Source: Amia ocellicauda (Eukaryota; Chordata; Actinopteri; Amiiformes; Amiidae). Taken from it: a stretch of 64,000 nucleotides of DNA. The stretch lies in the NCBI RefSeq assembly GCF_036373705.1, contig NC_089852.1:33183707-33247706 (forward strand). The letters run 5' to 3'. The position numbers were made by a program, and so were the translations under genes. The notes beneath the pieces are model-generated. The model was given only the letters and a program-made list of their open reading frames with translations, had not been told where the DNA came from and did not search any database. Positions 709-58,684 of the stretch are shown piece after piece; the stretch's first letter is position 1; every line of letters starts with the position of its first letter.

Positions 709-782
709 TATTATCATATTATAAAATAAAATAATGCAAAACTATAAATTAAAAGAAAGCTTTACTAGTTTTTGGTTATGTA

Positions 783-808
783 CACTGCTCAAAAAAATTA
801 AGGGAACA
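783..808 (+). mobile_element. Left terminus of Tc1-like element, family B
   Basis: The sequence CACTGCTCAAAAAAATTAAG and following bases to 808 is the terminal repeat of a widespread fish Tc1-like family and follows a TA dinucleotide at 781-782. The rest of the same element resumes at about 20163, so this 26 bp piece was cut off by the 19.3 kb palindromic insertion. Confidence 0.8.
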
Positions 809-1168
809 CGTAAGTAGAATGGGGTGCTCCATAGGCGTTTCCAGATATTTTATGGCATGTTACGTCACTTTTTTATTATACCTACGTCATATCCGGACGG
901 AAGTGTACACCCATAGCGCCCTAACCCCCACGACAACCCCCCTCCTTCTCTCCTGCTCTCACCCCCCTAGCCATCCCATTCCCTCCACATACACTGATTA
1001 GTTCTGTAGGTCTTTGTTCTTGCGGGAGAGTGTGAATGGTCAGAGTGTGAATTGTCCAGAGAGTTCAGAGTCTACTGTAGTGTTGGGTGGAATCACATTT
1101 GATGTAACCACGCCCAACCAATACAAGTTTCAGACCCCCCTCCTCACAGTGTGATTATCCCAGCCATA

Positions 1169-1169
<1 letters not shown>

Positions 1170-1216
<47 letters not shown>

Positions 1217-1513
1217 CTCTGGAAACATCTGCAGATAGGCTGTTTGCTTAATAATAAGCCTATTTTTAATTAAAAATAAAATAAAAAAGCTTGTGTTCAG
1301 TCTGTATAGGGTCATTGTTTTTGTAAAAACCCTCCGCCATGTTTAAAGCTCGTCAGAATTAAGCTTAAGCTGTGGCTATATTTTACTTATATAATCTCTC
1401 TCACATTCGTGTTCATTCGATTTTACTTAAATACAGTCTAGTAACTGCTTTCTAACTGTATTATAAGCTTGTACGAGTTAAACTTAAGAATTAAAATGTT
1501 TTTAATTTATTTT

Positions 1514-1561
<48 letters not shown>

Positions 1562-1891
1562 GCATAATGATAAGTCAGAGTTTAAAAATAAAAGCATTGG
1601 GTCACACAGTGTTAAATAGATCCCACCATGGAGGGCAGACCGCAGTCTGCATGAGCGGTGACATCAAACATTTCTAAACACTTTTAACCTATATAATTTA
1701 TAAGACTTGTAACAAAAAGCCCAAAGACTTCTTTTGTGGGGATAAACGCTGTTCTGAGTAGTTTCTGAATTTTTGTTTTGTTTTTTGTTTGATACCAAAC
1801 AAACCTTGCTATTAAAAAAAACCAAAAACACGTGTTCTGGATCCAGAAGTAATTTTAAAGGCCCAGCAAATGTTTTATTTACAACATCGCG

Positions 1892-1930
<39 letters not shown>

Positions 1931-2060
1931 ATAATGTGTTCATTCATTTTTACTTAAATACATTCTAGTAATTGTTTTTAACAGTCTTAAAAGCACGTAA
2001 GAGTTAAACTTAAGATGATAATATGTTTTTAATTTATTTTAGCTCTCTCTCTCTCTCTCT
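1170..2060 (+). repeat. Four (CT)n tracts in the left arm
   Basis: CT-dinucleotide tracts lie at about 1171-1213, 1516-1558, 1892-1930 (one CTTT interruption) and 2042-2060. Three are followed by related unique sequence (ATGCATAATGATAAGTC twice, TTAAGTTTAACTC-type motifs), so the block looks like an older imperfect tandem duplication of a CT-tract unit of about 350-500 bp. The homologous (GA)n tracts of the right arm differ in length, as expected for microsatellites. Confidence 0.85.
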
Positions 2061-2954
2061 CAATGCATAATGATAAGTCTGAGTCTGAGAATCAGTATAA
2101 AAAAGCTTGGGTCATTCTTTATATTGACAATTTGTAGTAAACATTTAAATAGTAATTTTCATTAAAAAATAAAAAAAGCTTGTGGTAATTCTGTATACTT
2201 ACATTTTTTTGTAAAAGTGCAGACATGTTTAAAGAGTTAAACTTTAGGGGTTAATATATTTAATGTACTTATTTAATCTCTCTCTATATATACATGCACA
2301 CACAGCAACATAGATGTAAGTTAAATGAAACTGTGTTAAAACAATTGAGTTACAAGCTTACAAAGATTGTCTGTGTTGCCCTGTCCTTAATTAGCAGTAT
2401 TCTTGCTGGCTATCTGGGGTGTGTGAATGGGGCAGAGCACAAACATCACCCTATCCATGGCCCCCTTTAAGTAAGGAAAGTACAGGTGTGAATGTGTTAA
2501 CGCTGCAGGGCCTGGGGTCCTGACTGCTGGGGGCTCTCACTCTGCAGGGCCCACTTAAGGTTAGGTTGTTTTTACAGCTTTTAAACCAAGGTTCATGAAG
2601 GATTAAAGTAAGTGGTGCTTCTTTTTTTGTTTTCTTAAGATCCTATATAAATGTGTGTATATGTATACACTATACGTCTAGGGCTATCTAAGAAAGACCG
2701 ACTATGATGAGGAAAGCGGTCTCCCAATACCTGCATCTGCATGGCAGCCATTCTCATTCATGATGACAATATACGTATTTTACTTTTATTTCTCCCATGT
2801 AGACAAATACACAAAGGTAATTTAGGCCATAAAGGGATGTATGGCAGTTGAAAATAAAGCCATCTGAGCATCAAAGAAGGGCTAAAGACCGCATAGAAAG
2901 TTGAAGATTCACTTTCTGAAGTAAAAAAGACTCATAGTCTTAATAAAACTACAT

Positions 2955-3168
2955 TTCTTAGCAGACACCCTTATTACAATTATTATAGGATATCACATTA
3001 TTGTTTACATTTACCCATTTATACAACTGGGCATTTACTGGAGCAATCTAGGCAAAGTACCTTGCGCAAGGGTACAACAGCAGTGCCCCCCACCAGGGAT
3101 TGAGCCCACCACCCTGTGTGCCAGAGTCTAGAGTCCTAACCACTACTCCACACCACTACATCTCATAG
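2955..3168 (-). mobile_element. tRNA-derived SINE (left arm)
   Basis: The minus strand reads as a tRNA-like head with an A-box-like GTAGTGGTTAGGACTC and a B-box-like GGGCTCAATCCC, followed by a body and the common fish SINE tail containing GGGTGTCTGCTAAGAAATG. The same copy is present in the right arm at 17547-17763, so it predates the palindrome or was copied with it. Confidence 0.75.
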
Positions 3169-4747
3169 TAAGGCTTGTTTACGGAGCTCTCGGTGGGTTA
3201 TGACGCTCAGACAATTATAGGCTCCGGTAACAGTCTGGACTATAGCTTTGATAACCCATCTTGGAGGGCCACAGAGCCAGGCTGGTTCTCACTATTCACC
3301 GACAACATATATATATGTTCAAAAGAATAAGTAAATCTAAACAATTCATGCAATAAGATTAAGTGAAGATCATTCATAATCTTAAACATAGGTCTCTGTG
3401 TGTGTATGTATATTTATATATGGTACACATTAGAATGGGGTGGAGGGTTATTCTGAAGATCTTAATGTCCCAGGATGTATTGATAATAAAACGTTTGGAC
3501 AGCTTTCAGCACCGCTAACTAGTATAATTCTTACCATTATAAAGAATTAAAAAGTAATTTTAAATATATTAACACATGATATTAAGTAAAGGGGAATAAA
3601 TAAATAAATCAATAATGAGAAATCCTAAACTAAACAGAGCAGCCTTGGTTAGCTGACAACCCTTGGTGGTGTGGCAAAAGCCTTAGACTAGTATATTTCC
3701 TACAGAATCAAATAATGATAAAGTCATTTCAAACATTTCACCATCATCGGGGTGTTAAGTAAAATAAATTAATGAATTAATACTAAAGTAACATAAGAAA
3801 TCATGAACAAGTATATCTTCATGAAACCAGCAGATTTGTACTTTTTCTAGTTAATACCAGCTCCATAGTCTCAGTATTTCAAAGTGTGAGACCTAGGTAG
3901 ATGAGAAGGAGCAGCATTCATAGAGGCAACAGTGAAAGATTAACACATAGAGGGACAGAGAGTGTCACCCGGGAGTCAAACTGGCTCACGTGTGAATCAA
4001 GCACCAGAGTCGTTAGTAAGATAACTTACACGTTGTTTTGTTGTTGTTGCTTTTCCCCTGCAAAACAAACAGCTGCAGAAAATAGAGGCAGAGATAGAAA
4101 TAGAAAATAAACAGAGGGAATGAGGTAGGCAAAGATACATGTGGGTTTTACAGTAAGTTAATACAAAAATAAAATACTAGGAGGAAAAGGATATTATAAA
4201 TACAAAACTGACATGGGCAAATATTTGAAGGTTTTATTACTATTTATTACTACTTTTATTTTAGTTTTGCACTTACAAAGTTTATGTATTTCACACAAAG
4301 GGCTTACACAGTCATTCAAAAAAACAGAAGTATTTACAAGTTGCCACAGAGAGAGACCGGAGAGTACAGGTGAGAGGTAGCCATCTTGTTGTTTGACTAG
4401 TTTCAGAATAGTCTTAGCATTGCTCATTTTGTTTTAAGTTTGCCTTAAATTGATGTTAGCATTGTCTGTAGTTTGCCTAAATTGAAGTCAATTCAGTTCA
4501 GCTGCTGAGTTGGTGAAAGTAAACAGGTTGTAGAAGGGAGTTTCTGTCTAGGACTAGCAGGAATTCTGTTGCAGGAGGAGCCAGGTGTGGCCAGTTAGGT
4601 GTGAATTGGGGGTAGGTAGACAAAAGCTACTTAAAGCAGCTGTTGAGAAAGAGCTGTGCTGTTTCTCGCTGACAAAAGTTAGGCAGTTGACTAGCAGCAG
4701 GAACCAAGAGAAGTAAAAAAAAAAAAAAAAAAGTAACATTTAGATGC

Positions 4748-5695
4748 ATGTGGCCACTACAGTGTCAGGTTTGCAGAATGATTGCCTTCCTGGATGAACT
4801 CATCCAAGAAGGCTTCATTTGTGAACGTTGTCAGCAGGTTGAAATCCTAAAGATCAAGGTTTGTGATCTTGAGGCTCAGCTTGTCGATCTGTGCTGTATT
4901 AGGGATATAGAAGAATTGGTCAATCAGCCCATGAGAGAGATGGTGTGCACGCCAAAACCTAGGAGTGTTGAGACCTTAGAGCAGGACAGTGTAGAGAACT
5001 GCTGGGTTACAGTAGGTCGTAACTGCAGAAAAGGGCGTGCACAACCCCTAGAGACACCCCAAGATCTTGAATTGCCCAACAGGTTCCAACTGCTGGACAC
5101 CGAGTTGGACAGTGACAGCTCAGAGGGTGATGGGAGGGCAGTTGAGCACCAGAGCACCATGGTGCCCACTCCCCCCCAGAAGAGGGAGGTAGTTATAGTA
5201 GGAGACTCAATTCTTAGAGGTGTAGATCACACAGTGTGTTCTAGTGACAAGGAGACACGCATGGTATCTTGCCTGCCTGGTGCTCAGGTTGCAGATCTCC
5301 CTAAACTAGTAGAAGAGCTACTGGCCAAAGCCGGGGGGAATCCACTGGCCATGGTCCACATTGGAACTAATGACATAGGAAAAGGTAGGACAGAGGTTCT
5401 GCAAGACAAATTTAAAGAGTTAGGAACAAAACTAAAGAGCAGAACCTCCACGGTAGTTTTCTCTGAAATACTTCTGGTACCACGTGCCAGGCCAGGGAGA
5501 CGGGCAGAGATTAGAAAGTTTAACACGTGGTTGAAAGCTTGGTGTAGGGAAGAGGGGTTTAGGTTTATGGAGCATTGGTCTTTCTTCTGGGATAGATGGG
5601 ATTTGTACAAACCGGACGGTCTACATCTAAACAGAAGGGGGGCTAATGCATTGGGAGTGCGTATGTGCAGTGAAATTGAGAATCATTTAAACTAG
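4748..5695 (+). CDS. CR1 LINE ORF1 protein with SGNH esterase domain
   Basis: A 315-residue intact frame from ATG. Residues 6-28 have two CxxC pairs (C6/C9 and C25/C28), a zinc-finger-like arrangement. Residues about 30-60 are predicted coiled-coil (VEILKIKVCDLEAQLVDL). Residues about 148-315 form an SGNH-hydrolase domain: the nucleophile block VVIVGDSILRG (Ser154), the block HIGTNDIG (Gly206, Asn208) and the C-terminal catalytic block DGLHLN (Asp290, His293). All expected catalytic positions are kept. In CR1 elements this protein is thought to bind element RNA and act with ORF2. Host function is not implied. The right-arm copy differs at a few residues (Gln29 versus Arg29, and Asp versus Glu near residue 79). 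Confidence 0.85.
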   Translation: MWPLQCQVCRMIAFLDELIQEGFICERCQQVEILKIKVCDLEAQLVDLCCIRDIEELVNQPMREMVCTPKPRSVETLEQDSVENCWVTVGRNCRKGRAQPLETPQDLELPNRFQLLDTELDSDSSEGDGRAVEHQSTMVPTPPQKREVVIVGDSILRGVDHTVCSSDKETRMVSCLPGAQVADLPKLVEELLAKAGGNPLAMVHIGTNDIGKGRTEVLQDKFKELGTKLKSRTSTVVFSEILLVPRARPGRRAEIRKFNTWLKAWCREEGFRFMEHWSFFWDRWDLYKPDGLHLNRRGANALGVRMCSEIENHLN

Positions 5696-5784
5696 GAACC
5701 AGGGGGCCTGGGAGCTCTGACAATGGGAGATGTTACACTAAGGAAAGAAAACCAAGGGAAACTGCCAGTAGGAAAGTCCTGAAA

Positions 5785-8501
5785 TGTTTGTACCTCAATG
5801 CCAGGAGTATAAGGAACAAGATGTTAGACTTGGAAGCCACAGTGCTGGCGTGTGACTATGATGTTGTAGGAGTGACGGAAACATGGCTTACAGAAAATTA
5901 TGGGGATGAATACAAGTTGGAAGGATACACACAGTTTAGGAGACACAGGCAAAATCGAAGAGGGGGTGGGGTAGCATTATATGTGAAAAATTACATTGAG
6001 GCAGAAGAACTTGTATTAGATCCCAGAAACGGAACAGAATCTTTGTGGGTTAAAATTTTGAACACGAGATCTGGAGGATTAGTGGTAGGAGTGTGTTACA
6101 GGCCACCAAACTCAAATATTCAGAAAGATGCTGCATTGTCCAGTGTAATCAGGACTGCATGTAGCAAGGATGTGGCTGTTATAATGGGGGATTTCAATTT
6201 CCCAAACTTAGACTGGAAAAGCCCAGTGGGGACTACAGAAGCAGAAATAGAAATGCTTGAGATGGTAAATGACTGCTTTCTAACCCAATTTGTCAGGAAA
6301 CCAACCAGAGAGAGCGCATGTATTGACTTGATCTTTTCAAATGACCAAGATAGAGTCAGGGGGACAGTAGTTAGAGAACCAATGGCAAATTGTGATCACA
6401 ATATGGTTAGCTTTGAGGCATTCTTTCAAAAAACAAGGTCCAAGTCTAAAACAATGGTCTACAATTTTAGAAAAGCAAACCTTGAAGGTATGAGATGGCA
6501 TTTAGAAGAGGTAGACTGGAGCACACTGGATACAGAGTTCGTTGAAAATGGATGGGTATATTTTAAGAATATACTACTTGAGGCTCTGGATCAATTTGTA
6601 CCAAAACTTAGCAAATTGAGGAACAAAAAACACTGGCCAAAATGGTTTAATAGAGGTATACAAAAAAATATAAAGAGGAAGAAAATGTTGTATAGGGCAT
6701 ACAAAAGGGATGGTGACGAAACAAAATACATAGAATATGTTGAGCTGCAAAGAGATCTTAAGAAAGGGATCAGGAAAGCAAAGAGGGAAATAGAAAGAAA
6801 CATAGCTTTTTTCAATATTACAACAGCAAGCGGTCAATAAAGGAGGAGGTGAAACGGATAAAGGGCAAAAATGGAGGTATCTTGGAAAACGAACAAGATG
6901 TGGCAAATATTCTAAATGAGTATTTCACAGAGGTTCTTACAAAAGAAAAAACAGATGACATGCCACAGGTTGACAATCAGTCCAGTCAAACCCTAAGAGA
7001 AATCAGGATAAATAAGGATGAGGTACTAAAGGGACTAGCAGAATTAAAAACAAACAAATCACCTGGGCCAGATGGGATATTTCCAACAGAAATGAGGGAA
7101 ATTATTTATAAGCTGCTAACTCGATTATTCCAAATGACACTTAGAACAGGGGATGTGCCAACTGACTGGAAGACAGCAAATGTCATACCAATCCACAAGA
7201 AAGGGGACAAAACTGAGCCAGGAAATTACAGACCAATCAGTCTCCCCTGCATCACCTGTAAAATGTTGGAAAAAATGATTAGACAGAAAATAGAGGAGCA
7301 TCTCAATGAAAACCATATTCTTGGAGATAGTCAACATGGGTTTAGACGAGGCAGATCATGTCTTACTAATGTATTAAAATGTTTTGAACATGCAACTGCA
7401 GCTGTAGATCACGTGAAAGCATATGATATGATATACTTAGATTTCCAAAAAGCTTTTGATAAGGTTCCACACCAAAGACTGATCCTCAAATTGGAAGCTG
7501 TAGGAATTCAGGGTAATGTAAGTAGATGGATTATGAACTGGTTGATGTATAGGAAACAGAGGGAGTCGATAAGAGGAGTCGCTTCTAACTGGAGTGAGGT
7601 TGTTAGTGGAGCTCCACAGGGATCAGTACTAGGGCCTTTGCTTTTTCTAATCATTATTAATGATCTGGATTCTGGGATAGTTAGCAAACTTGTCAAATTT
7701 GAAGATGATACTAAAATAGGTGGCTCAGCAGATACAATCTTGGCAGCACAGGCTATTCAGAGGGACTTAGATAATATTCAGTTGTGGGCTGACACCTGGC
7801 AGATTAAATTCAATGTGGACAAGTGCAAGGTAATACATGCAGGTAACAAAAATGTCCACTATAATTAGACTATGGGAGGTACAGATCTAGATGATGTAAC
7901 GCATGAGAAAGACCTAGGAGTCTATGTGGACTCTTCACTTTCTCCATCCAAGCAATGTGGGGAAGCAATAAAAAAGGCAAACAGAATGTTAGGGTATATT
8001 GTCAAAAGTGTAGAATTTAAAACAAGGGAAGTAATGTTAAGACTGTACAATGCACTAGTTAGACCTCATCTGGAATACTGTGTACAGTTCTGGGCACCAC
8101 ACTTCAAGAAGGATATCGCTGCTTTAGAGGCAGTTCAGAGGAGAGCAACCAGACTTATTCCAGGTCTGAAGGGAAAGTCCTACTCGGAGAGACTGAGGGA
8201 ACTGAACCTTTTCACCCTGGAACAGAGGAGACTACGTGGGGACTTGATCCAAGTCTTCAAAATCATGAAAGGCATCCACCACATCAAACCAGAGCTTTTC
8301 CAGATCAGAAGGGACACACGCACCCGGGGACACAAATGGAAATTGGGCTTCAAGGCATTCAAAACGGTAAACAGGAGACACTTCTTTACACAGAGAGTAG
8401 TCACAATCTGGAATAATCTACCCAGCGATGTGGTTGAAGCTGAAAGTTTGGGAACATTTAAAAATAGTCTGGATAGGATCCTTGGATCACTTAGATATTA
8501 A
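5785..8501 (+). pseudogene. CR1 LINE ORF2 (APE endonuclease - reverse transcriptase), broken
   Basis: The endonuclease part (5785-6840) has YLNARSIRNK, a GVTETWL block with the catalytic Glu, an IMGDFNFP block and a CDHNMVSF block at the end of the domain. The frame then shifts near 6810-6840 and the reverse transcriptase follows (6849-8501) with NYRPISL, YLDFQKAFDKVPH and [11 protein letters not shown] blocks. A TAG stop interrupts it at 7866-7868, at a position where the CR1 fragment at 62448-63480 has a Tyr codon. The catalytic box reads FEDD (7698-7709) instead of the usual FADD or YADD. No ATG for ORF2 is evident; the frame is open upstream across the ORF1 stop. The protein would be inactive. 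Confidence 0.88.
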
Positions 8502-8547
8502 TAAACACCAAACGAGCACGATGGGTCGAATGGCCCTCTCTCGTTTG

Positions 8548-8577
8548 TAAACTTTCTTATGTTCTTATGTTCTTAAA
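8548..8577 (+). repeat. CR1 3' terminal octamer repeat (left arm)
   Basis: The TTCTTATGTTCTTATGTTCT run ends the LINE copy. Short octamer-like repeats at the 3' end, rather than a poly(A) tail, are characteristic of CR1 elements. Confidence 0.8.
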
Positions 8578-9456
8578 AAAGTCATGAGCCTCAAGGCCTG
8601 TGGCACCAATCACACTGTCAGGAGAAGGGGCTTCGGAGTAGGTCATCCGCCGCCCACCGCCCCGATTATTGAGCACAATCCCTGTACAATACTGGTTCCC
8701 TTCTCATGTACACTGACAGGGGTCATTCTGATCTACATTAGAGTAACATAAGACCATAACATTTCTAAAATATGTTCTGTTTCAATGATCTGAGGTTTTC
8801 ACTGTTTGGATCACTTTAGCTCATTCTTTGTCATTTTTTTTGCAAAGGATCTCATGCATTATAATTGCGAGAAACGCTTCTACTTTTCCAATTCTTCATT
8901 AAAAAAAAAAAAGTGAAAATGTTATTAAAGTCTTAATTAAACAGAGAGAAGGCCTATATTGGGCAGATAGGCTAGACACAAGCTGTATTTCACTTCAATT
9001 GTCTAGTTCTGTAGTTATTGTCTATATCTAAGTAGTGTCCAGTTGTAATGAAACATGTACAGCAAACAGGAAGGTTCTTCAATGTATCGATTTGTGATTG
9101 TCAAAAATTGTATCTCGCAACAGATGTATAGTTCTTTTAAAAGTTTTATAAAACATCTTTTCTACAGCTCAATCATTATCAGTAACAAAAAATATGCAGC
9201 AAACAGAAATAGGTAATACGATGTATTAAAATGTCACAGCATGTGAGTAGTTTTGTAGCGGGCTATGGGTGCTTGTGGTCATTTAAAATATTTACTCAGA
9301 GGTTACCTGAAGACGAGCTTAAGTGTCAGTGCAGGGGCTAGGGTCTGAACTAAGACCTCTTCACAAGTCTCTATTTCCTTCTCTGTTTCAAGAGCAAACT
9401 TTAGCCATTTGCTCTCTCTTTTTAACAGTCTGCAATGTTGTAAATGAGGTTGAGGC
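8578..9456. other. Inner part of left arm, no gene seen
   Basis: AT-rich DNA with no convincing reading frame or known repeat. Its full reverse complement is at 11258-12136 in the right arm. Confidence 0.7.
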
Positions 9457-11257
9457 AATTATATTCAGACAAGTTAACGGCTGATGGATTTTCTATACAG
9501 GTGTAGCTCAACATCCTATCACATTTGTTTTGTAGGCTATTAAAAAATTATAAAGGATTCATCTCAAACTAAAATATGTCCCTTTCATCTTATGTCTCTG
9601 CAACATACTCATAGCACACGGGCCATCTCAGTGCACGGACCCGTCTCTCCACTTTGATCAGGGTCTGCCGCTTAAGCTGTGTACACTTAACTGTTCAAAA
9701 CTTAACTTAACTTAACTTTTTTGCTGTTATCCAAACAGTCTGTTTCACCATTCAACGATTGCTTAACAGAAGACAGAAAAGTAAAATGTAACAAAACTGT
9801 ATAAACGCACAGGATCTGGCTATTTATTTATTTGTTTATTTATTTATTTTTGTTGTATGACGCTGAAGCATTAAGGTGGTTAAGGATGTTTAGAAACACT
9901 GGAAAATGGTAAGATGCCTTTTAATTGATTTATTTTATAATGATTATTATCATTATTGTAGTTGTTTTTTTAGTTCTTTCTATGGTTTTGTTTTGTAAAT
10001 AGTATTATTACTTCACAAGATTAGTAAACAAGAGGTATGGATATAAGAAAAAGTGTAGTTTAAAAGATGAATTCCACTATTATTTATTTCAAACCAAGGG
10101 TATGGGGTGCATACATTGACCAACTAACAACCTATTTAGAAATAAATGTTTGGGGGGGTTAAAGACAAATTAAGCTTTCTAAATGTTGATACTAAAAATA
10201 ACTAATTTGAAAGTGTAAAGCTTACACCTTAAAACTGTTAAAAATTAAATGACTAAGATATTGAACAAATTAGTAATTTTAAGAATAAGTAGCATCTAAA
10301 TGGTTACCCTGAAAAATTGTGACACAGTTAAGGACCTTGATTTGCTATTAAGTCTGGTTGAACCCGATTCTCTAGAGTTTAGACCATACAGCACTGAAGT
10401 GCATTATTTAAAATATGACACTCGCCATTGTCTGTAATGTTATAAAATAGGTTGATAGATAGATTTCTAAGGCTTTAAAGAGAATGAGCCATAGTTACAC
10501 CTTAGTATACAAGCTATATTGGGAAACTTACTCTCCCCCCTTAATTTTTAATTTAGTCTCAAATAAGTGTAGCTGAATTCAAGAGTGAGTGGCTTGTTCT
10601 TCCAGTTTGAGAGGTTTAAATCCTTTTTCTAGTCTCAAGAAGCAGGGGGTGATATGTATTAGTTGTTTGACTATATGTTTAATTAAAACTTACTGATTTG
10701 TTGTTTCACACAGCTCATGTATTTTATACCATTTGTCTGCAAGTTTTATTCTGGGAGGGGGCATTTAGGCTATGGCCTACATGTAAAATATTTTGTTTAT
10801 CTGAATTTGACCGACCCATAAAATACATGCTAAAGTTTTAACAATGATAAAAAGGGGTATTTATCATTTATGGCTTAATCAAGGGGCTTATATAAATAAC
10901 TGTGTTGAACACATAAAGAGGTCATATAACAACTGCTCATTTGGAAGGTGGATGAGAATGAGAATATAGGAAACCTCTATTTTTCTTTTTTAGATTTTGA
11001 TTCCTTCTGACAATAGTAAACTAAAGAAGGTTTTCAAAGTAATATAAAAGAAACATGGGTGTAACTTTAAAAGTAAATACCTTCTTTACTAATTTATGTT
11101 ACCAACTGCTTTAGGGGCTAAAAAGTCACAAATCTGAGTCCTGAAAACCAGAGAGCTAGGGGGTAGGGACTGATAAACCCCCCGCAGAGGCCAGGTCAGG
11201 GAGCCTTTGTGACTTTTTAGCCCCTAAAGCAGTTGGTAACATAAATTAATTAATTAA
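9457..11257. other. Spacer of the giant palindrome
   Basis: About 1.8 kb of AT-rich DNA unique to the centre, with no reading frame longer than 60 codons and no family I recognise. It contains a CTTAACTTAACTTAAC run (9695-9715), a TTTATTTATTTATTT run (near 9830) and, at its right edge, a smaller 42 bp inverted repeat. Confidence 0.7.
11091..11247. repeat. 42 bp perfect inverted repeat at the spacer/right-arm junction
   Basis: Bases 11091-11132 are the exact reverse complement of 11206-11247, with a 73 bp loop between them. The stem contains ACTGCTTTAGGGGCTAAAAA. The right copy lies only about 10 bases from the start of the right palindrome arm. A stem this long would fold strongly in single-stranded DNA or RNA. 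It may be a separate foldback or MITE copy, or a trace of how the large palindrome formed. Confidence 0.85.
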
Positions 11258-12213
11258 TGCCTCAACCTAATTTACAACATTGCAGACTGTTAAAAAGAGA
11301 GAGCAAATGGCTAACGTTTGCTCTTGAAACAGAGAAGGAAATAGAGACTTGTGAAGAGGTCTTAGTTCAGACCCTAGCCCCTGCACTGACACTTAAGCTC
11401 GTCTTCAGGTAACCTCTGAGTAAATATTTTAAATGACCACAAGCACCCATAGCCCGCTACAAAACTACTCACATGCTGTGACATTTTAATACATCGTATT
11501 ACCTATTTCTGTTTGCTGCATATTTTTTGTTACTGATAATGATTGAGCTGTAGAAAAGATGTTTTATAAAACTTTTAAAAGAACTATACATCTGTTGCGA
11601 GATACAATTTTTGACAATCACAAATCGATACATTGAAGAACCTTCCTGTTTGCTGTACATGTTTCATTACAACTGGACACTACTTAGATATAGACAATAA
11701 CTACAGAACTAGACAATTGAAGTGAAATACAGCTTGTGTCTAGCCTATCTGCCCAATATAGGCCTTCTCTCTGTTTAATTAAGACTTTAATAACATTTTC
11801 ACTTTTTTTTTTTTAATGAAGAATTGGAAAAGTAGAAGCGTTTCTCGCAATTATAATGCATGAGATCCTTTGCAAAAAAAATGACAAAGAATGAGCTAAA
11901 GTGATCCAAACAGTGAAAACCTCAGATCATTGAAACAGAACATATTTTAGAAATGTTATGGTCTTATGTTACTCTAATGTAGATCAGAATGACCCCTGTC
12001 AGTGTACATGAGAAGGGAACCAGTATTGTACAGGGATTGTGCTCAATAATCGGGGCGGTGGGCGGCGGATGACCTACTCCGAAGCCCCTTCTCCTGACAG
12101 TGTGATTGGTGCCACAGGCCTTGAGGCTCATGACTTTTTTAAGAACATAAGAACATAAGAAAGTTTACAAACGAGAGAGGGCCATTCGACGCATCGTGCT
12201 CGTTTGGTGTTTA

Positions 12214-14930
12214 TTAATATCTAAGTGATCCAAGGATCCTATCCAGACTATTTTTAAATGTTCCCAAACTTTCAGCTTCAACCACATCGCTGGGTAGATT
12301 ATTCCAGATTGTGACTACTCTCTGTGTAAAGAAGTGTCTCCTGTTTACCGTTTTGAATGCCTTGAAGCCCAATTTCCATTTGTGTCCCCGGGTGTGTGTG
12401 TCCCTTCTGATCTGGAAAAGCTCTGGTTTGATGTGGTGGATGCCTTTCATGATTTTGAAGACTTGGATCAAGTCCCCACGTAGTCTCCTCTGTTCCAGGG
12501 TGAAAAGGTTCAGTTCCCTCAGTCTCTCCGAGTAGGACTTTCCCTTCAGACCTGGAATAAGTCTGGTTGCTCTCCTCTGAACTGCCTCTAAAGCAGCGAT
12601 ATCCTTCTTGAAGTGTGGTGCCCAGAACTGTACACAGTATTCCAGATGAGGTCTAACTAGTGCATTGTACAGTCTTAACATTACTTCCCTTGTTTTAAAT
12701 TCTACACTTTTGACAATATACCCTAACATTCTGTTTGCCTTTTTTATTGCTTCCCCACATTGCTTGGATGGAGAAAGTGAAGAGTCCACATAGACTCCTA
12801 GGTCTTTCTCATGCGTTACATCATCTAGATCTGTACCTCCCATAGTCTAATTATAGTGGACATTTTTGTTACCTGCATGTATTACCTTGCACTTGTCCAC
12901 ATTGAATTTAATCTGCCAGGTGTCAGCCCACAACTGAATATCATCTAAGTCCCTCTGAATAGCCTGTGCTGCCAAGATTGTATCTGCTGAGCCACCTATT
13001 TTAGTATCATCTTCAAATTTGACAAGTTTGCTAACTATCCCAGAATCCAGATCATTAATAATGATTAGAAAAAGCAAAGGCCCTAGTACTGATCCCTGTG
13101 GAGCTCCACTAACAACCTCACTCCAGTTAGAAGCGACTCCTCTTATCGACACCCTCTGTTTCCTATACATCAACCAGTTCATAATCCATCTACTTACATT
13201 ACCCTGAATGCCTACAGCTTCCAATTTGAGGATCAGTCTTTGGTGTGGAACTTTATCAAAAGCTTTTTGGAAATCTAAGTATATCATATCATATGCTTTC
13301 ACGTGATCTACAGCTGCAGTTGCATGTTCAAAACATTTTAATACATTAGTAAGACATGATCTGCCTCGTCTAAACCCATGTTGACTATCTCCAAGAATAT
13401 GGTTTTCATTGAGATGCTCCTCTATTTTCTGTCTAATCATTTTTTCCAACATTTTACAGGTGATGCAGGGGAGACTGATTGGTCTGTAATTTCCTGGCTC
13501 AGTTTTGTCCCCTTTCTTGTGGATTGGTATGACATTTGCTGTCTTCCAGTCAGTTGGCACATCCCCTGTTCTAAGTGTCATTTGGAATAATCGAGTTAGC
13601 AGCTTATAAATAATTTCCCTCATTTCTGTTGGAAATATCCCATCTGGCCCAGGTGATTTGTTTGTTTTTAATTCTGCTAGTCCCTTTAGTACCTCATCCT
13701 TATTTATCCTGATTTCTCTTAGGGTTTGACTGGACTGATTGTCAACCTGTGGCATGTCATCTGTTTTTTCTTTTGTAAGAACCTCTGTGAAATACTCATT
13801 TAGAATATTTGCCACATCTTGTTCGTTTTCCAAGATACCTCCATTTTTGCCCTTTATCCGTTTCACCTCCTCCTTTATTGACCGCTTGCTGTTGTAATAT
13901 TGAAAAAAGCTATGTTTCTTTCTATTTCCCTCTTTGCTTTCCTGATCCCTTTCTTAAGATCTCTTTGCAGCTCAACATATTCTATGTATTTTGTTTCGTC
14001 ACCATCCCTTTTGTATGCCCTATACAACATTTTCTTCCTCTTTATATTTTTTTGTATACCTCTATTAAACCATTTTGGCCAGTGTTTTTTGTTCCTCAAT
14101 TTGCTAAGTTTTGGTACAAATTGACCCTGAGCCTCAAGTAGTATATTCTTAAAATATACCCATCCATTTTCAACGAACTCTGTATCCAGTGTGCTCCAGT
14201 CTACCTCTTCTAAATGCCATCTCATACCTTCAAGGTTTGCTTTTCTAAAATTGTAGACCATTGTTTTAGACTTGGACCTTGTTTTTTGAAAGAATGCCTC
14301 AAAGCTAACCATATTGTGATCACAATTTGCCATTGGTTCTCTAACTACTGTCCCCCTGACTCTATCTTGGTCATTTGAAAAGATCAAGTCAATACATGCG
14401 CTCTCTCTGGTTGGTTTCCTGACAAATTGGGTTAGAAAGCAGTCATTTACCATCTCAACCATTTCTATTTCTGCTTCTGTAGTCCCCACTGGGCTTTTTC
14501 AGTCTAAGTTTGGGAAATTGAAATCCCCCATTATAACAGCCACATCCTTGCTACATGCAGTCCTGATTACACTGGACAATGCAGCATCTTTCTGAATATT
14601 TGAGTTTGGTGGCCTGTAACACACTCCTACCACTAATCCTCCAGATCTCGTGTTCAAAATTTTAACCCACAAAGATTCTGTTCCGTTTCTGGGATCTAAT
14701 ACAAGTTCTTCTGCCTCAATGTAATTTTTCACATATAATGCTACCCCACCCCCTCTTCGATTTTGCCTGTGTCTCCTAAACTGTGTGTATCCTTCCAACT
14801 TGTATTCATCCCCATAATTTTCTGTAAGCCATGTTTCCGTCACTCCTACAACATCATAGTCACACGCCAGCACTGTGGCTTCCAAGTCTAACATCTTGTT
14901 CCTTATACTCCTGGCATTGAGGTACAAACA
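12214..14930 (-). pseudogene. CR1 LINE ORF2, broken (right arm)
   Basis: Same organisation as the left copy: endonuclease (14930-13875), then reverse transcriptase (13866-12214). It shares the frameshift near 13900, the TAG stop at 12844-12846 and the FEDD catalytic box. It has an extra in-frame TGA at about 14499-14501, in the conserved FPNLDW segment of the endonuclease, which the left arm lacks. It also has EAQGQF where the left arm has EALDQF, and KQRVSIRG for KQRESIRG. The Val version matches the independent CR1 fragment near 63.4 kb, so the left arm carries the derived change there. Confidence 0.87.
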
Positions 14931-15019
14931 TTTCAGGACTTTCCTACTGGCAGTTTCCCTTGGTTTTCTTTCCTTAGTGTAACATCTCCCATTGTCAGAG
15001 CTCCCAGGCCCCCTGGTTC

Positions 15020-15967
15020 CTAGTTTAAATGATTCTCAATTTCACTGCACATACGCACTCCCAATGCATTAGCCCCCCTTCTGTTTAGATGTAGACCGTC
15101 CGGTTTGTACAAATCCCATCTATCCCAGAAGAAAGACCAATGCTCCATAAACCTAAACCCCTCTTCCCTACACCAAGCTTTCAACCACGTGTTAAACTTT
15201 CTAATCTCTGCCCGTCTCCCTGGCCTGGCACGTGGTACCAGAAGTATTTCAGAGAAAACTACCGTGGAGGTTCTGCTCTTTAGTTTTGTTCCTAACTCTT
15301 TAAATTTGTCTTGCAGAACCTCTGTCCTACCTTTTCCTATGTCATTAGTTCCAATGTGGACCATGGCCAGTGGATTCCCCCCGGCTTTGGCCAGTAGCTC
15401 TTCTACTAGTTTAGGGAGATCTGCAACCTGAGCACCAGGCAGGCAAGATACCATGCGTGTCTCCTTGTCACTAGAACACACTGTGTGATCTACACCTCTA
15501 AGAATTGAGTCTCCTACTATAACTACCTCCCTCTTCTGGGGGGGAGTGGGCACCATGGTGCTCTGGTGCTCAACTGCCCTCCCATCACCCTCTGAGCTGT
15601 CACTGTCCAACTCGGTGTCCAGCAGTTGGAACCTGTTGGGCAATTCAAGATCTTGGGGTGTCTCTAGGGGTTGTGCACGCCCTTTTCTGCAGTTACGACC
15701 TACTGTAACCCAGCAGTTCTCTACGCTCTCCTGCTCTAAGGTCTCAACACTCCTAGGTTTTGGCGTGCACACCATCTCTCTCATGGGCTGATTGACCAAT
15801 TCTTCTATATCCCTAATACAACACAGATCGACAAGCTGAGCCTCAAGATCACAAACCTTGATCTTTAGGATTTCAACCTGCCGACAACGTTCACAAATGA
15901 AGCCTTCTTGGATGAGTTCATCCAGGAAGGCAATCATTCTGCAAACCTGACACTGTAGTGGCCACAT
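15020..15967 (-). CDS. CR1 LINE ORF1 protein with SGNH esterase domain (right arm)
   Basis: Intact 315-residue frame almost identical to the left-arm ORF1: CxxC pairs near the N-terminus, a short coiled-coil region, then the esterase blocks GDSILRG, GTNDIG and DGLHLN. Visible differences are Arg29 for Gln29 and Glu for Asp in the QESVENC segment. That two ORF1 copies remain open while both ORF2 copies are dead suggests the arms are young or kept alike by conversion; selection on ORF1 need not be invoked. Confidence 0.85.
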   Translation of the reverse strand: MWPLQCQVCRMIAFLDELIQEGFICERCRQVEILKIKVCDLEAQLVDLCCIRDIEELVNQPMREMVCTPKPRSVETLEQESVENCWVTVGRNCRKGRAQPLETPQDLELPNRFQLLDTELDSDSSEGDGRAVEHQSTMVPTPPQKREVVIVGDSILRGVDHTVCSSDKETRMVSCLPGAQVADLPKLVEELLAKAGGNPLAMVHIGTNDIGKGRTEVLQDKFKELGTKLKSRTSTVVFSEILLVPRARPGRRAEIRKFNTWLKAWCREEGFRFMEHWSFFWDRWDLYKPDGLHLNRRGANALGVRMCSEIENHLN

Positions 15968-17546
15968 GCATCTAAATGTTACTTTTTTTTTTTTTTTTTT
16001 TACTTCTCTTGGTTCCTGCTGCTAGTCAACTGCCTAACTTTTGTCAGCGAGAAACAGCACAGCTCTTTCTCAACAGCTGCTTTAAGTAGCTTTTGTCTAC
16101 CTACCCCCAATTCACACCTAACTGGCCACACCTGGCTCCTCCTGCAACAGAATTCCTGCTAGTCCTAGACAGAAACTCCCTTCTACAACCTGTTTACTTT
16201 CACCAACTCAGCAGCTGAACTGAATTGACTTCAATTTAGGCAAACTACAGACAATGCTAACATCAATTTAAGGCAAACTTAAAACAAAATGAGCAATGCT
16301 AAGACTATTCTGAAACTAGTCAAACAACAAGATGGCTACCTCTCACCTGTACTCTCCGGTCTCTCTCTGTGGCAACTTGTAAATACTTCTGTTTTTTTGA
16401 ATGACTGTGTAAGCCCTTTGTGTGAAATACATAAACTTTGTAAGTGCAAAACTAAAATAAAAGTAGTAATAAATAGTAATAAAACCTTCAAATATTTGCC
16501 CATGTCAGTTTTGTATTTATAATATCCTTTTCCTCCTAGTATTTTATTTTTGTATTAACTTACTGTAAAACCCACATGTATCTTTGCCTACCTCATTCCC
16601 TCTGTTTATTTTCTATTTCTATCTCTGCCTCTATTTTCTGCAGCTGTTTGTTTTGCAGGGGAAAAGCAACAACAACAAAACAACGTGTAAGTTATCTTAC
16701 TAACGACTCTGGTGCTTGATTCACACGTGAGCCAGTTTGACTCCCGGGTGACACTCTCTGTCCCTCTATGTGTTAATCTTTCACTGTTGCCTCTATGAAT
16801 GCTGCTCCTTCTCATCTACCTAGGTCTCACACTTTGAAATACTGAGACTATGGAGCTGGTATTAACTAGAAAAAGTACAAATCTGCTGGTTTCATGAAGA
16901 TATACTTGTTCATGATTTCTTATGTTACTTTAGTATTAATTCATTAATTTATTTTACTTAACACCCCGATGATGGTGAAATGTTTGAAATGACTTTATCA
17001 TTATTTGATTCTGTAGGAAATATACTAGTCTAAGGCTTTTGCCACACCACCAAGGGTTGTCAGCTAACCAAGGCTGCTCTGTTTAGTTTAGGATTTCTCA
17101 TTATTGATTTATTTATTTATTCCCCTTTACTTAATATCATGTGTTAATATATTTAAAATTACTTTTTAATTCTTTATAATGGTAAGAATTATACTAGTTA
17201 GCGGTGCTGAAAGCTGTCCAAACGTTTTATTATCAATACATCCTGGGACATTAAGATCTTCAGAATAACCCTCCACCCCATTCTAATGTGTACCATATAT
17301 AAATATACATACACACACAGAGACCTATGTTTAAGATTATGAATGATCTTCACTTAATCTTATTGCATGAATTGTTTAGATTTACTTATTCTTTTGAACA
17401 TATATATATGTTGTCGGTGAATAGTGAGAACCAGCCTGGCTCTGTGGCCCTCCAAGATGGGTTATCAAAGCTATAGTCCAGACTGTTACCGGAGCCTATA
17501 ATTGTCTGAGCGTCATAACCCACCGAGAGCTCCGTAAACAAGCCTT

Positions 17547-17763
17547 ACTATGAGATGTAGTGGTGTGGAGTAGTGGTTAGGACTCTAGACTCTGGCACAC
17601 AGGGTGGTGGGCTCAATCCCTGGTGGGGGGCACTGCTGTTGTACCCTTGCGCAAGGTACTTTGCCTAGATTGCTCCAGTAAATGCCCAGTTGTATAAATG
17701 GGTAAATGTAAACAATAATGTGATATCCTATAATAATTGTAATAAGGGTGTCTGCTAAGAAAT
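17547..17763 (+). mobile_element. tRNA-derived SINE (right arm)
   Basis: Mirror copy of the left-arm SINE: A-box-like GTAGTGGTTAGGACTC, B-box-like GGGCTCAATCCC, and tail GGGTGTCTGCTAAGAAATG. Probably RNA polymerase III-derived. No flanking duplication was established. Confidence 0.75.
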
Positions 17764-18654
17764 GTAGTTTTATTAAGACTATGAGTCTTTTTTACTTCAG
17801 AAAGTGAATCTTCAACTTTCTATGCGGTCTTTAGCCCTTCTTTGATGCTCAGATGGCTTTATTTTCAACTGCCATACATCCCTTTATGGCCTAAATTACC
17901 TTTGTGTATTTGTCTACATGGGAGAAATAAAAGTAAAATACGTATATTGTCATCATGAATGAGAATGGCTGCCATGCAGATGCAGGTATTGGGAGACCGC
18001 TTTCCTCATCATAGTCGGTCTTTCTTAGATAGCCCTAGACGTATAGTGTATACATATACACACATTTATATAGGATCTTAAGAAAACAAAAAAAGAAGCA
18101 CCACTTACTTTAATCCTTCATGAACCTTGGTTTAAAAGCTGTAAAAACAACCTAACCTTAAGTGGGCCCTGCAGAGTGAGAGCCCCCAGCAGTCAGGACC
18201 CCAGGCCCTGCAGCGTTAACACATTCACACCTGTACTTTCCTTACTTAAAGGGGGCCATGGATAGGGTGATGTTTGTGCTCTGCCCCATTCACACACCCC
18301 AGATAGCCAGCAAGAATACTGCTAATTAAGGACAGGGCAACACAGACAATCTTTGTAAGCTTGTAACTCAATTGTTTTAACACAGTTTCATTTAACTTAC
18401 ATCTATGTTGCTGTGTGTGCATGTATATATAGAGAGAGATTAAATAAGTACATTAAATATATTAACCCCTAAAGTTTAACTCTTTAAACATGTCTGCACT
18501 TTTACAAAAAAATGTAAGTATACAGAATTACCACAAGCTTTTTTTATTTTTTAATGAAAATTACTATTTAAATGTTTACTACAAATTGTCAATATAAAGA
18601 ATGACCCAAGCTTTTTTATACTGATTCTCAGACTCAGACTTATCATTATGCATT

Positions 18655-18785
18655 GAGAGAGAGAGAGAGAGAGCTAAAATAAATTAAAAACATATTATCA
18701 TCTTAAGTTTAACTCTTACGTGCTTTTAAGACTGTTAAAAACAATTACTAGAATGTATTTAAGTAAAAATGAATGAACACATTAT

Positions 18786-18824
<39 letters not shown>

Positions 18825-19154
18825 CGCGATGTTGTAAATAAAACATTTGCTGGGCCTTTAAAATTACTTCTGGATCCAGAACACGTGTTTTTGGTTTTTT
18901 TTAATAGCAAGGTTTGTTTGGTATCAAACAAAAAACAAAACAAAAATTCAGAAACTACTCAGAACAGCGTTTATCCCCACAAAAGAAGTCTTTGGGCTTT
19001 TTGTTACAAGTCTTATAAATTATATAGGTTAAAAGTGTTTAGAAATGTTTGATGTCACCGCTCATGCAGACTGCGGTCTGCCCTCCATGGTGGGATCTAT
19101 TTAACACTGTGTGACCCAATGCTTTTATTTTTAAACTCTGACTTATCATTATGC

Positions 19155-19204
<50 letters not shown>

Positions 19205-19520
19205 AAAATAAATTAAAAACATTTTAATTCTTAAGTTTAACTCGTACAAGCTTATAATACAGTTAGAAAGCAGTTACTAGACTGTATTTAAGTAAAATCG
19301 AATGAACACGAATGTGAGAGAGATTATATAAGTAAAATATAGCCACAGCTTAAGCTTAATTCTGACGAGCTTTAAACATGGCGGAGGGTTTTTACAAAAA
19401 CAATGACCCTATACAGACTGAACACAAGCTTTTTTATTTTATTTTTAATTAAAAATAGGCTTATTATTAAGCAAACAGCCTATCTGCAGATGTTTCCAGA
19501 GATTGAGAGAGAGAGAGACA
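18655..19520 (-). repeat. (GA)n tracts in the right arm
   Basis: GA tracts at about 18655-18674, 18786-18824, 19158-19202 and 19504-19519 mirror the left-arm CT tracts. The outermost is clearly shorter here (about 16 bp against about 43 bp on the left), showing that slippage has acted separately on each arm. Confidence 0.85.
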
Positions 19521-19659
19521 GTATGGCTGGGATAATCACACTGTGAGGAGGGGGGTCTGAAACTTGTATTGGTTGGGCGTGGTTACATCAAATGTGATTC
19601 CACCCAACACTACAGTAAGCTCTGAACTCTCTGGACAATTCACACTCTCTGGCAAGAAT

Positions 19660-20080
19660 AAATAACTGCAGACTTAAACAGCTTGGGGAGAGGGAGGGGG
19701 AGAGAAGGAGAGGGGGGTGAGAGGGGTTGTGGGGGTTGAGGGTAAAATGGGTGAGGGGGGTCAGAAGCTACCCAACCTGACACCTTCACACTCTGACCAT
19801 TCACTTGGGATAGGGATGGGGGAGAGAAGGAGAGGGGGGTCGTGGGGGTAGAGGGCAAAATGGGTGTACACTTCCGGGACGATGGGTGAGGGGGGTCAGA
19901 AGCTACCCAACCTGACACCTTCACACTCTGACCATTCACACTCTCCCGCAAGAACAAAGACCTACAGAACTAATCAGTGTATGTGGAGGGAATGGGATGG
20001 CTAGGGGAGTGAGAGCAGGAGAGAAGGAGGGGGGTTGTCGTGGCGGTTAGGGCGCTATGGGTGTACACTTCCGTCCGGAT
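19660..20080. repeat. Subterminal tandem repeat expanded only in the right arm
   Basis: A G-rich unit of roughly 120-150 bp containing GGTCAGAAGCTACCCAACCT, CACCTTCACACTCTGACCAT and a GGGGGAGAGAAGGAGAGGGG-like segment occurs at about 19690-19803 and 19808-19942. A related third part at 19985-20075 ends in TGTACACTTCCGTCCGGATA. The left arm has only the last part (890-1060). This accounts for most of the length difference between the arms. Confidence 0.8.
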
Positions 20081-20162
20081 ATGACGTAGGTATAATAAAC
20101 AAGTGACGTAACATGCCATAAAATATCTGGAAACTCCTATGGTGCCCCCCTTTCTTCTAACG

Positions 20163-20692
20163 CAATAATCACAATCATCACATCAATTAAACTTCAGGGA
20201 TATCAATCTGTCCAGTTAAGAAGCCTAAGCGATTGTGAATCAATGTCACCTGGTTTGGTGCAAATGAAAGTGACAACAGGTGCACTGGAGCGGCAACAGC
20301 AAGACAACCCCCAAAAAGGGAATGGTTTTGCAGGTGGTGGCCACAGACAATTGCTCTCTCCTTATCCTTCCTGACTGATTCTTCTCTACTTTTGCATTTT
20401 GCTAGTGTCCTTGTAACTACTGGTAGCATGAGCCGGGACCTGCAGCCCATTCAGGTTGCACAGGTAGTCCAGCTCCTCCAGGATGGCACATCCATACGTG
20501 CCGTTGCAAGAAGGTTTGCTGTGTCTCCCAGTACAGTCTTAAGAGCATGGAGGAGATACCAAGAGGAGAGCTGGACAGGGCCGTAGAAGGGCAACCACCC
20601 AGCTGCAGGACCGGTATCTGCTCCTTTGTGCGAGGAGGAACAGGTGGAGTACTGCCAGAGCCCTACAAAATGATCTCCAGCAGGCTACTGGT
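20163..20692 (+). mobile_element. Tc1-like element, family B, right part (interrupted)
   Basis: Resumes the element that starts at 783: leader sequence (AATTAAACTTCAGGGATATC, then GGCCACAGACAATTGCTCTC) followed by the transposase N-terminus. Homology stops at about 20692, where DIRS sequence begins, so the 3' half was lost or replaced. Confidence 0.82.
20428..20690 (+). pseudogene. Tc1-like transposase N-terminal remnant (family B)
   Basis: Starts at the ATG of MSRDLQPIQVAQVVQLLQD and continues through GTSIRAVARRFAVSPSTVL, a clear paired-like helix-turn-helix. A frameshift after YQEESW gives an early stop. The rest of the N-terminal domain is recognisable in another frame ([16 protein letters not shown]) before the copy ends at the DIRS junction. 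The catalytic domain is absent. Confidence 0.85.
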
Positions 20693-20696
20693 GTGG

Positions 20697-21720
20697 GGAG
20701 GTCCTATGCCCCGTCTGTCTGGGCACCGACAGCGGGCGCAGTTTGGCCGCGACTTCTGGAACCGCTACAGTGCGCTCGGAGGTCCGCCGTTTTACCGGGC
20801 GCCGCCGCAATCGCTGCTGCGTCCAGAGATGACGTGGACGTGGACTCAGACCTCGAGGTGGAGCTCATGGAGGAGGAGCTGGTCGCCCCTCCTGCTCCCA
20901 CGGGACCTCCTGCTGCCTGACCTCCTTGATGAGCTGAGGGATACCTGGGACCATCCGCCCTAGCCAGGAGAGAGGAGGCTCATGCTAGGACCCAGGGCGC
21001 GTAAATTCCAACATAGCCGTGCTCGTCTCCTTACCTCCGCTGTCCGCGGAGCCACGTGACCTGGCCTGCCCCAATAGGCAGTGTCGCGTCACGAAGCCTC
21101 CTGGCATTGTACTTGGCTCAGCTGGCGGAGTCCTCGCAACATGGCGCATCACCCACCACGCCCCCATCTCGGAGATAGCGGCAGCGGCGGATCAGCTGGT
21201 CACAGAAATGTGCCAAGGGGCAAGGGTGACGGGGCGATCCCTGGCAGCCATTGTTGCGACATGCTGCCAGCTTTGGCTGTCCCAGGCACGGCGGGTCCCT
21301 GAGGTCGACAGGACTCGCCTCATGGATGCCCCTATCTCACCAGGCTTTACTTTTTGCCCCTCTGTGGAGGAGATGCTCTCGCGCACCCTTCAGGACATGG
21401 AGCAGTCCCTGCAGCTTGCCCGAGTTTACCCAGTGGAGGCCCTCCGACCTTGGCTCCCATGCCACAGCCCAGGCCACAGGCCGGACTACAGCTCAGGTCA
21501 CAGCCCCACCCACCTGCCGATCTTTGCCAGTGTCTCACTGGCAGGTAGGCACCCCCCCAGGTTGGCCGCCCTGGCCCCTGGCGGCCCACGGCAGCTTGTG
21601 GTAGGAGGGGACCCGGCCCGACCCTACCTCCTCCACCACCCAAGCCCCGCCCCTGAGGCGTTCCAGCAGCCTCTGGCCCACCCTTACACCCCCCAGCAAC
21701 TCTCCAATTGGCAACTCTGC
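20697..21720 (+). pseudogene. DIRS gag-like region, degraded
   Basis: Proline- and alanine-rich, GC-rich sequence with frames broken several times ([20 protein letters not shown] near 20830-20900; a further open part at 21019-21804). The position just before the reverse transcriptase is that of DIRS gag. No conserved domain recognised; the assignment rests on position and composition. Confidence 0.55.
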
Positions 21721-21724
21721 ACCC

Positions 21725-22485: not shown

Positions 22486-22489
22486 CCGG

Positions 22490-58655: not shown

Positions 58656-58684
58656 TTTCACTTCTGCTGAAATAGCACTGTTAT

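Follow-up and report, generated by a model that had tools for sequence, protein, structure and literature searches.

We propose that the palindrome described here is probably a non-autonomous Maverick/Polinton element whose giant-palindrome body was made by fold-back, which was integrated as a unit and whose arms were later converted. It lies in a window (the whole stretch analysed) of 64,000 nt from Amia ocellicauda (assembly GCF_036373705.1, NC_089852.1:33,183,707-33,247,706, forward strand). In this assembly, the palindrome has Maverick termini, a 6-bp target duplication and a fold-back centre, is lodged in a Tc1 element as a single unit, and no enzyme gene of the family was found in it.

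A palindrome inside a Tc1 element

The palindrome is near-symmetric and 19.3 kb long, with arms at 813-9457 and 11258-20158 separated by a spacer of 1,800 bp. The first-pass annotation had described nearly identical inverted arms of 8.6-8.9 kb around a 1.8-kb spacer, which is borne out by alignment, as positions 1042-9457 and 11258-19648 are 99.4% identical over 8,419 columns; an inverted match of 8.4 kb at this identity is no chance effect. The outer parts of the arms (809-1051 and 19920-20162) are 96.3% identical over 243 alignment columns, and the arm-to-arm alignment shows the right arm to be longer by about 281 bp near its outer end. The borders, initially placed at 809 and 20162, are moved here to 813 and 20158, the family border common to other genome copies, around which the ends of BLAST matches scatter by a few bp. 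The features of the insertion are as follows.

781-812, plus strand: left end of the target Tc1 (family B), its last 6 bp being the left target duplication
807-812: left target duplication, CACGTA
813-9457, plus strand: left arm of the palindrome, from the arm alignment
813-1041, plus strand: outer Maverick terminal repeat, left; starts AGTAGAATGG; border common to at least 36 other sites
9458-11257, no strand: spacer; single-copy continuation of the arm, and the central hairpin
11258-20158, minus strand: right arm of the palindrome, from the arm alignment
19930-20158, minus strand: outer Maverick terminal repeat, right; starts AGAAGAAAGG; 8/229 differences from the left repeat
20159-20164, plus strand: right target duplication, AACGCA, like CACGTA at 4/6 bases

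The host Tc1 resumes at 20165, after the right target duplication. Of 19 sibling Tc1 copies, 18 read straight through the insertion site, with as many as four substitutions tolerated in the Tc1 motif (zero to three were seen); the remaining sibling, L046, lacks the motif. This agrees with the earlier description of a Tc1 split by the palindrome. The arrival of the entire palindrome in a single insertion event, which had also been suggested, is supported by the exact transposon borders and the six duplicated target bases. Compared with the uninterrupted Tc1 there are exactly six extra bases, of which four match between the two sides; the chance of at least four matches in six is 0.038, and the incomplete match weighs against our best explanation.

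Maverick ends and their coding relatives

The terminal 200 bp of the element give at least 45 match rows in the genome, the window's own counted. In these genome DNA searches the best 40 candidates were scored, and all copy counts are lower bounds. Terminus sites were taken from matches whose start lies in the first 12 bp of the terminus, a definition under which the left end of E6b (L018), being truncated, drops out, and 43 rows, less six duplicates and the window's own, leave 36 sites, again a lower bound. The first-pass annotation had suggested a search for other copies of the termini and allowed that there might be none; they occur at no fewer than 36 other distinct sites. The first bases at these sites are AGTAGAAT in 35 of 36 and AGCAGAAT in one, and 11 of the 36, located on C2, have one common flank and look like copies of a single insertion. 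The window element itself ends in AGTAGAAT on the left and AGAAGAAA on the right, and the family's AGTAGAAT matches the published (AGT)2 motif at five of six bases. In six other two-ended elements, read by eye, the target duplications agree at all six bases in three and at five of six in three.

Relatives with the same ends in the same genome carry coding sequence. In a Pfam scan of 20 frames, chosen from 66 open frames listed, DNA_pol_B_2 was found in seven and rve in two, one of the rve matches being slightly below the Pfam cut-off in a frame that also contains Chromo. Ten of the 20 frames have no Pfam match at 1e-3, a figure from general Pfam models that also bears on capsid, protease and ATPase genes; matches to P-type models, i.e. 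to a P-superfamily transposase, number zero in the 20 scanned frames of the 66. On these terminal and protein matches, we assign the ends to a Maverick/Polinton family whose coding relatives are found in this genome. The unfamiliar class of foldback element suggested previously is therefore rejected, because the ends are those of Mavericks and relatives with the same termini have genes for DNA polymerase B and an rve integrase.

No Maverick gene was found inside the window palindrome, consistent with the non-autonomous character assigned to it at first. The possibility that the arms conceal such a gene was considered and rejected, as pieces of the relatives' open frames matched the first 240 bp only, which is the terminal repeat. 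Judged by its gene content, the window element is a non-autonomous Maverick/Polinton derivative and not an autonomous member.

The centre, the LINE and the history of the arms

The centre of the palindrome contains two junctions, and both arms carry the same LINE, which is absent from the first-pass annotation.

11090-11248, no strand: central hairpin with 43-bp arms (11090-11132 and 11206-11248) and a 73-bp loop
11206-11208: primary fold-back junction with TTT microhomology, common to E3b
11249-11258, no strand: second junction, a 9-bp AT filler (11249-11257) followed by the complement of 9457
4324-8572, plus strand: LINE in the left arm, with GDSL-esterase ORF, endonuclease and reverse transcriptase
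12143-16392, minus strand: same LINE in the right arm, inserted at the identical site and differing at 14 of 4,249 bp

The spacer is collinear with L023 up to 10750 and with L018 up to 10982, and L068 matches it at 10660-11208. At the window's turning point, L068 and L069 read GCCTTT AGGCTGTATC; L068 continues for more than 500 bp past this point without matching the arm, L069 makes its own turn after another 16 bp, and plain read-through is seen in L068 only. The central stem-loop was also considered as a separate MITE, which was rejected, as L068 and L069 have one of its arms and read on past 11208. The fold-back junction, as an exact stretch of 28 bases, was found at two places in 988 Mb, namely the window and one Maverick-ended copy without the LINE (E3b), whose other end was not found within 20 kb, which restricts the reading of E3b as a mobile full palindrome. 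At the second junction, found in the window only, the right arm lacks about 1.63 kb beside the centre.

The LINE site is empty in L023 (E3b). Since E3b combines the fold-back junction with an empty LINE site, the fold-back appears to predate the LINE insertion, and the arms would have been homogenised later. Differences between the arms amount to 8 in 229 bp at the outer edge, 0 in 3,688 scored bp of the interior outside the LINE and 14 in 4,249 bp of the LINE. These counts leave out positions 1042-1072, where two mismatches lie next to the 281-bp indel, and 1172-1561, a stretch of CT runs containing indels of 28 and 2 bp. As the segments were picked after the mismatch list was known, the Fisher tests are post hoc, with P 3e-12 for the edges (10/287) and P 0.0002 for the LINE, each against the non-LINE interior. 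Divergence from E3b and E29b in non-terminal stretches is 1.8-4.0% of the aligned parts, counted over aligned bases with gaps excluded (within 1562-4323, 1,432 of 2,762 for E3b and 2,279 for E29b). The LINE differs more between the arms than the rest of the interior and therefore one single homogenisation does not fit; the LINE differences may stem from separate conversion tracts, from exchange with other LINEs, or from errors in polishing.

Inverted arrangements of the arm sequence occur in one coding copy and at five or more further loci. C5, C18 and C6 carry this internal sequence as inverted arms; the stretches read there yielded no family terminus, which limits their reading as mobile units. 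The turning points at C5, C18 and C19 differ from the window's, that of C19 being 16 bp beyond it. Six related two-ended elements, most of them from other subfamilies, have terminal repeats of about 0.4-0.8 kb.

Proposed origin and comparison with known systems

Protein priming is the presumed mode of Maverick replication, and we know of no observed Maverick replication intermediate. In our model, during Maverick replication or repair a 3' end at about 11208 would snap back on its own strand by TTT pairing, leaving a 73-nt loop, and would be extended back to its own terminus. As the folded molecule would have the same terminus at both ends, integrase acting in trans could integrate it as it would an ordinary Maverick. 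One arm would subsequently have lost 1.63 kb beside the centre, the LINE would have entered one arm and been copied to the other, and arm-to-arm conversion would have removed interior differences whilst the edges stayed divergent.

The product of replication fold-back could also arise by repair within a resident element. A Maverick already present in the Tc1 might have suffered a break in its right half, after which the right terminal repeat invaded the left, the left half was copied inwards and the ends were joined, yielding a palindrome that keeps the old termini and target duplication. This would account for the 3.5% divergence of the outer 229 bp beside an identical non-LINE interior, and excerpts of PMC3573991 describe terminal-repeat extension in Galileo, whose copies with the longest repeats are non-autonomous. 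We nevertheless consider it unlikely, as the same junction is present in E3b at another site; E3b is free of the LINE, and the junction therefore predates this LINE insertion and was not made uniquely here, although repair in place can still explain the later homogenisation. It is rather improbable that the window element is an internal-deletion derivative of a subfamily that has natural terminal repeats of 9-10 kb or that was founded as a whole by one old palindrome. The inverted arms at C5, C18 and C6 and the nearby turn of C19 are in its favour, but the six two-ended relatives have short repeats, though mostly in other subfamilies, and L068 passes the turning point without returning into the arm.

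An artefact of assembly or read fold-back is very improbable, given that spacer and arms are asymmetric, with indels of 281 and 28 bp and 10 differences at the edges, that the flanks differ, and that there are a target duplication and a second genomic copy of the junction. That break repair duplicated the Tc1 locus in inverted orientation, the palindrome never having transposed, is rejected as extremely improbable: mutant yeast does form palindromes with short-homology centres by fold-back priming, but such copying would enter the flanking Tc1, yet the arms stop at the family border, the Tc1 is single and six bases are duplicated.

Under the fold-back that we favour, a fold-back genome with identical termini and a normal integration footprint would be the fossil of a replication intermediate. 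It suggests that two identical ends are enough for Maverick integration, provides an ordered series for arm-to-arm conversion (fold-back, LINE, homogenisation) and leads us to propose gene-free Maverick satellites as a testable class. Only tentatively do we extend this to these Mavericks repeatedly spawning such palindromic satellites, whose hairpins would be copied by the polymerase of intact relatives, with arms re-matched in each round and re-insertion by integrase, and which would persist as a lineage and parallel, in DNA, the copy-back defective genomes of viruses.

Protein-primed viruses such as adenovirus produce palindromic defective genomes, and copy-back defective viral genomes are also known. 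The window element resembles these in having the same terminus at both ends and in the fold-back during replication proposed here, but it is an integrated transposon whose replication intermediate is postulated. With vertebrate Maverick/Polinton elements, which in excerpts of PMC8097293 have 6-bp target duplications and an (AGT)2 terminal motif, it shares the length of the duplication, termini near (AGT)2 and relatives with DNA polymerase B and rve; in contrast to them, it is palindromic, no polymerase or integrase gene was found inside it, and its arms of 8.6-8.9 kb (about 4.4 kb without the LINE) fall outside the 46-1,447 bp given there for the inverted repeats of intact vertebrate Mavericks. 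No palindromic Maverick appears in the titles and abstract openings of the papers listed on Polinton/Maverick with palindrome or foldback, and the string 'palindrom' occurs 0 times in the available text of the Maverick and giant-transposon papers searched. Foldback and Galileo elements, too, have very long inverted repeats flanking a shorter middle part, and in the excerpts of PMC3573991 the repeats of Drosophila Galileo reach about 1.26 kb, are longest in non-coding copies and are bounded by 7-bp sequences; Galileo, however, belongs to the P superfamily, whereas the window termini are those of a Maverick. Sex-chromosome palindromes, finally, are inverted duplicates kept alike by intrachromosomal conversion (PMC3403216, excerpts), as is proposed here for the two arms, although the window arms are derived from a transposon and no host genes were seen in them.

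A palindromic Maverick inserted into Tc1

The palindrome described in the first-pass annotation is present in the one assembly on which the whole analysis is based, and is asymmetric in detail. Self-comparison of the window gives a main inverted pair (1042-9457 against 11258-19648, 99.4% over 8,419 columns) and an adjoining pair (809-1051 against 19920-20162, 96.3% over 243 columns), with the spacer between the arms at 9458-11257. A 281-bp stretch near the outer end occurs in the right arm only; the other arm-to-arm differences are a 28-bp difference in a CT run and point changes. Also in the self-comparison, 22178-23244 recurs inverted at 30323-31407 (85%). Within 53667-58803 a sequence of about 1.9 kb is present as two direct copies that are 80% alike; it also occurs in part at 26359 and 38925.

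At the insertion site, 18 of the 19 sibling loci of the split Tc1 read an uninterrupted AAGGGAACACGTAATCATCACA, carrying 0-3 substitutions. The window reads AAGGGAACACGTA, the element at 813-20158, AACGCA and then ATAATCAC. Exactly six bases are thus extra relative to these siblings (AACGCA against CACGTA, alike at 4/6). The palindrome entered as one unit, as had been proposed from the sequence alone. Private changes cluster at the right border (20125-20164), affecting two of the six duplication bases and three of the first 24 terminus bases. To judge from the footprint, the inserting enzyme would be the family's integrase. The Tc1 leader from 20165 gives way near 20700 to other sequence, in which a reverse-transcriptase-like frame (21708-22067) was seen by eye.

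We searched the genome containing the window (988 Mb, 385 contigs) with the terminal 200 bp, which gave at least 45 matches among the best 40 of 144 candidates, the window's own included, and nine regions were retrieved. The border common to other genome copies lies at 813 and 20158, with BLAST ends varying by a few bp, and replaces the 809 and 20162 first assigned. One related copy, E6b, is truncated at its left end and begins at 874. The terminus starts with AGTAGAAT in 35 of the 36 other distinct sites read and with AGCAGAAT in one; in the window, the left terminus reads AGTAGAAT and the right one AGAAGAAA. Eleven of the 36, all on contig C2, have one 16-bp flank in common, so that independent insertions number fewer than 36. 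These eleven occupy an 11-Mb stretch (C2:52.6-63.5 Mb; L051-L060, L063), perhaps a large repeated unit containing a Maverick. Several matches to window 10160-10363 lie about 100-120 kb from the C2 terminus copies, positions being compared by eye.

Six other two-ended elements carry 6-bp target duplications, read by eye as identical in three and alike at 5/6 in three. Among 66 listed open frames of at least 170 aa in the relatives, 20 were scanned against Pfam: seven match DNA_pol_B_2, two match rve (one at 34.8 bits; the other at 32.0, below the cut-off of 32.6, in a frame that also contains Chromo), one is an olfactory receptor in L024 beside the related copy E3b, and ten gave no Pfam match at 1e-3. 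The ends, the 6-bp duplications and the polymerase and rve frames of the relatives are marks of Maverick/Polinton elements; a survey of Mavericks in vertebrates describes 6-bp duplications and (AGT)2 ends (PMC8097293).

No Maverick genes were found in the arms, and the relatives' open-frame pieces match the terminal repeat only. Almost all arm frames of at least 90 aa lie within a LINE that is present in each arm.

Copies of the LINE in the arms
4324-8572, left arm: GDSL-esterase ORF, endonuclease, reverse transcriptase
12143-16392, right arm: GDSL-esterase ORF, endonuclease, reverse transcriptase

At 9700-9716, the window is without about 210-240 bp that the family copies E3b, E29b and E6b possess.

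The fold-back at the centre

Two loci, L068 (C23; 569 columns, 85.6%) and L069 (C19; 108 columns, 83.3%), can be aligned with the window as far as 11208, beyond which both run on into GCCTTTAGGCTGTATCACAGGC. For more than 500 bp past the turning point, L068 does not match the arm; L069 itself reverses after a further 16 bp and joins the complement of 8824. The window turns back after GCCTTT: 11206-11248 is the complement of 11090-11132 over 43 bp, the loop between them is 73 bp long, and TTT is shared at the turn. With up to three mismatches permitted, the 28-base fold-back junction was found at two places in the genome, both exact: the window and E3b. E3b agrees with the window at 59/59 bp around the junction. 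At the family border it bears a Maverick terminus, with flanks different from the window's; its other end was not found within 20 kb.

After the 43 bp come nine A/T bases and then the complement of 9457, and 9458-11089 is absent from the right arm. No other genome place was found for this second junction, which we interpret as a loss that occurred later, next to the centre and from one side only. One-sided losses of this kind can stabilise palindromes. A review describes only a risk that is higher where the spacer is shorter or missing.

Most likely, a 3' end from Maverick replication or repair would have snapped back at TTT and been extended to its own terminus. The product would carry the same terminus twice, and so could be integrated by the enzymes of intact relatives. 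We infer that the fold-back took place during replication. In yeast deficient in Mre11 or Sae2, inverted duplications ascribed to fold-back priming are reported to have inverted repeats of 3-15 bp at their centres (PMC10622511). The main rival, an in-place repair in which one terminal repeat invades the other, would account well for the homogenisation of the arms, but gives no account of the junction that is common to the window and E3b.

Order of events and homogenisation of the arms

The LINE site is empty in E3b (L023, C3:44.11 Mb). Since E3b has the fold-back junction but lacks the LINE, the fold-back is older than the LINE, provided that the two junctions have a common origin; even so, the LINE occupies one site in both arms. 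The arms differ at 8/229 bp at the outer edge (813-1041), at 2/58 bp at the inner edge (9400-9457), at 14/4,249 bp in the LINE and at 0/3,688 bp in the non-LINE interior (1073-1171, 1562-4323, 8573-9399). For segments picked after the mismatch list had been seen, P is 3e-12 for the edges and 0.0002 for the LINE, each against the non-LINE interior. In aligned non-terminal stretches, divergence from the window is 1.8-4.0% for E3b and E29b. The interior, LINE included, was therefore made nearly identical after the palindrome had formed, and the edges retain older divergence. In-place gene conversion between the arms explains the interior identity; a hairpin in which the arms pair during replication could also produce it. 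The excess of differences in the LINE over the sequence around it suggests separate tracts, polishing errors or exchange with other LINEs. A similar gradient is seen at C6:39.455-39.472 Mb (L073, L074), from 88% outside through 94-96% to 99.6% over 669 bp inside.

Other inverted loci and known elements

Inverted internal arm sequence elsewhere in the genome
C5:49.37-49.39 Mb: two main pieces, 97.1 and 97.7%
C18:29.533-29.538 Mb: 1,473 columns, 97.9%
C6:39.455-39.472 Mb: inverted arm sequence
C19:7.985 Mb: one inverted turn
C18:29.473-29.476 Mb: match positions only; may be a copy of the C18:29.533-29.538 Mb locus

Another inverted arrangement occurs in E6b (C6:45.01 Mb), a copy with frames for polymerase and integrase: arm segment 2721-10982 is in inverted order, adjoining a 0.56-kb inverted repeat pair (L018 2341-2903 / 6780-7333). 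L070-L074 yielded no family terminus, but these stretches may stop short of the element ends. Judged from these arrangements, recurrent fold-back in these Mavericks is likely. Movement as a unit is established for the window only, and E3b makes it probable.

A palindromic Maverick was not found reported in the open-access literature searched. In Galileo, the repeats of non-coding copies are extended up to about 1.26 kb (PMC3573991). The terminal repeats of six other two-ended members in this genome measure about 0.4-0.8 kb. The arms in the window reach 8.6-8.9 kb, or about 4.4 kb without the LINE, whereas the terminal repeats of intact vertebrate Mavericks span 46-1,447 bp, with a mean of 402 (PMC8097293).
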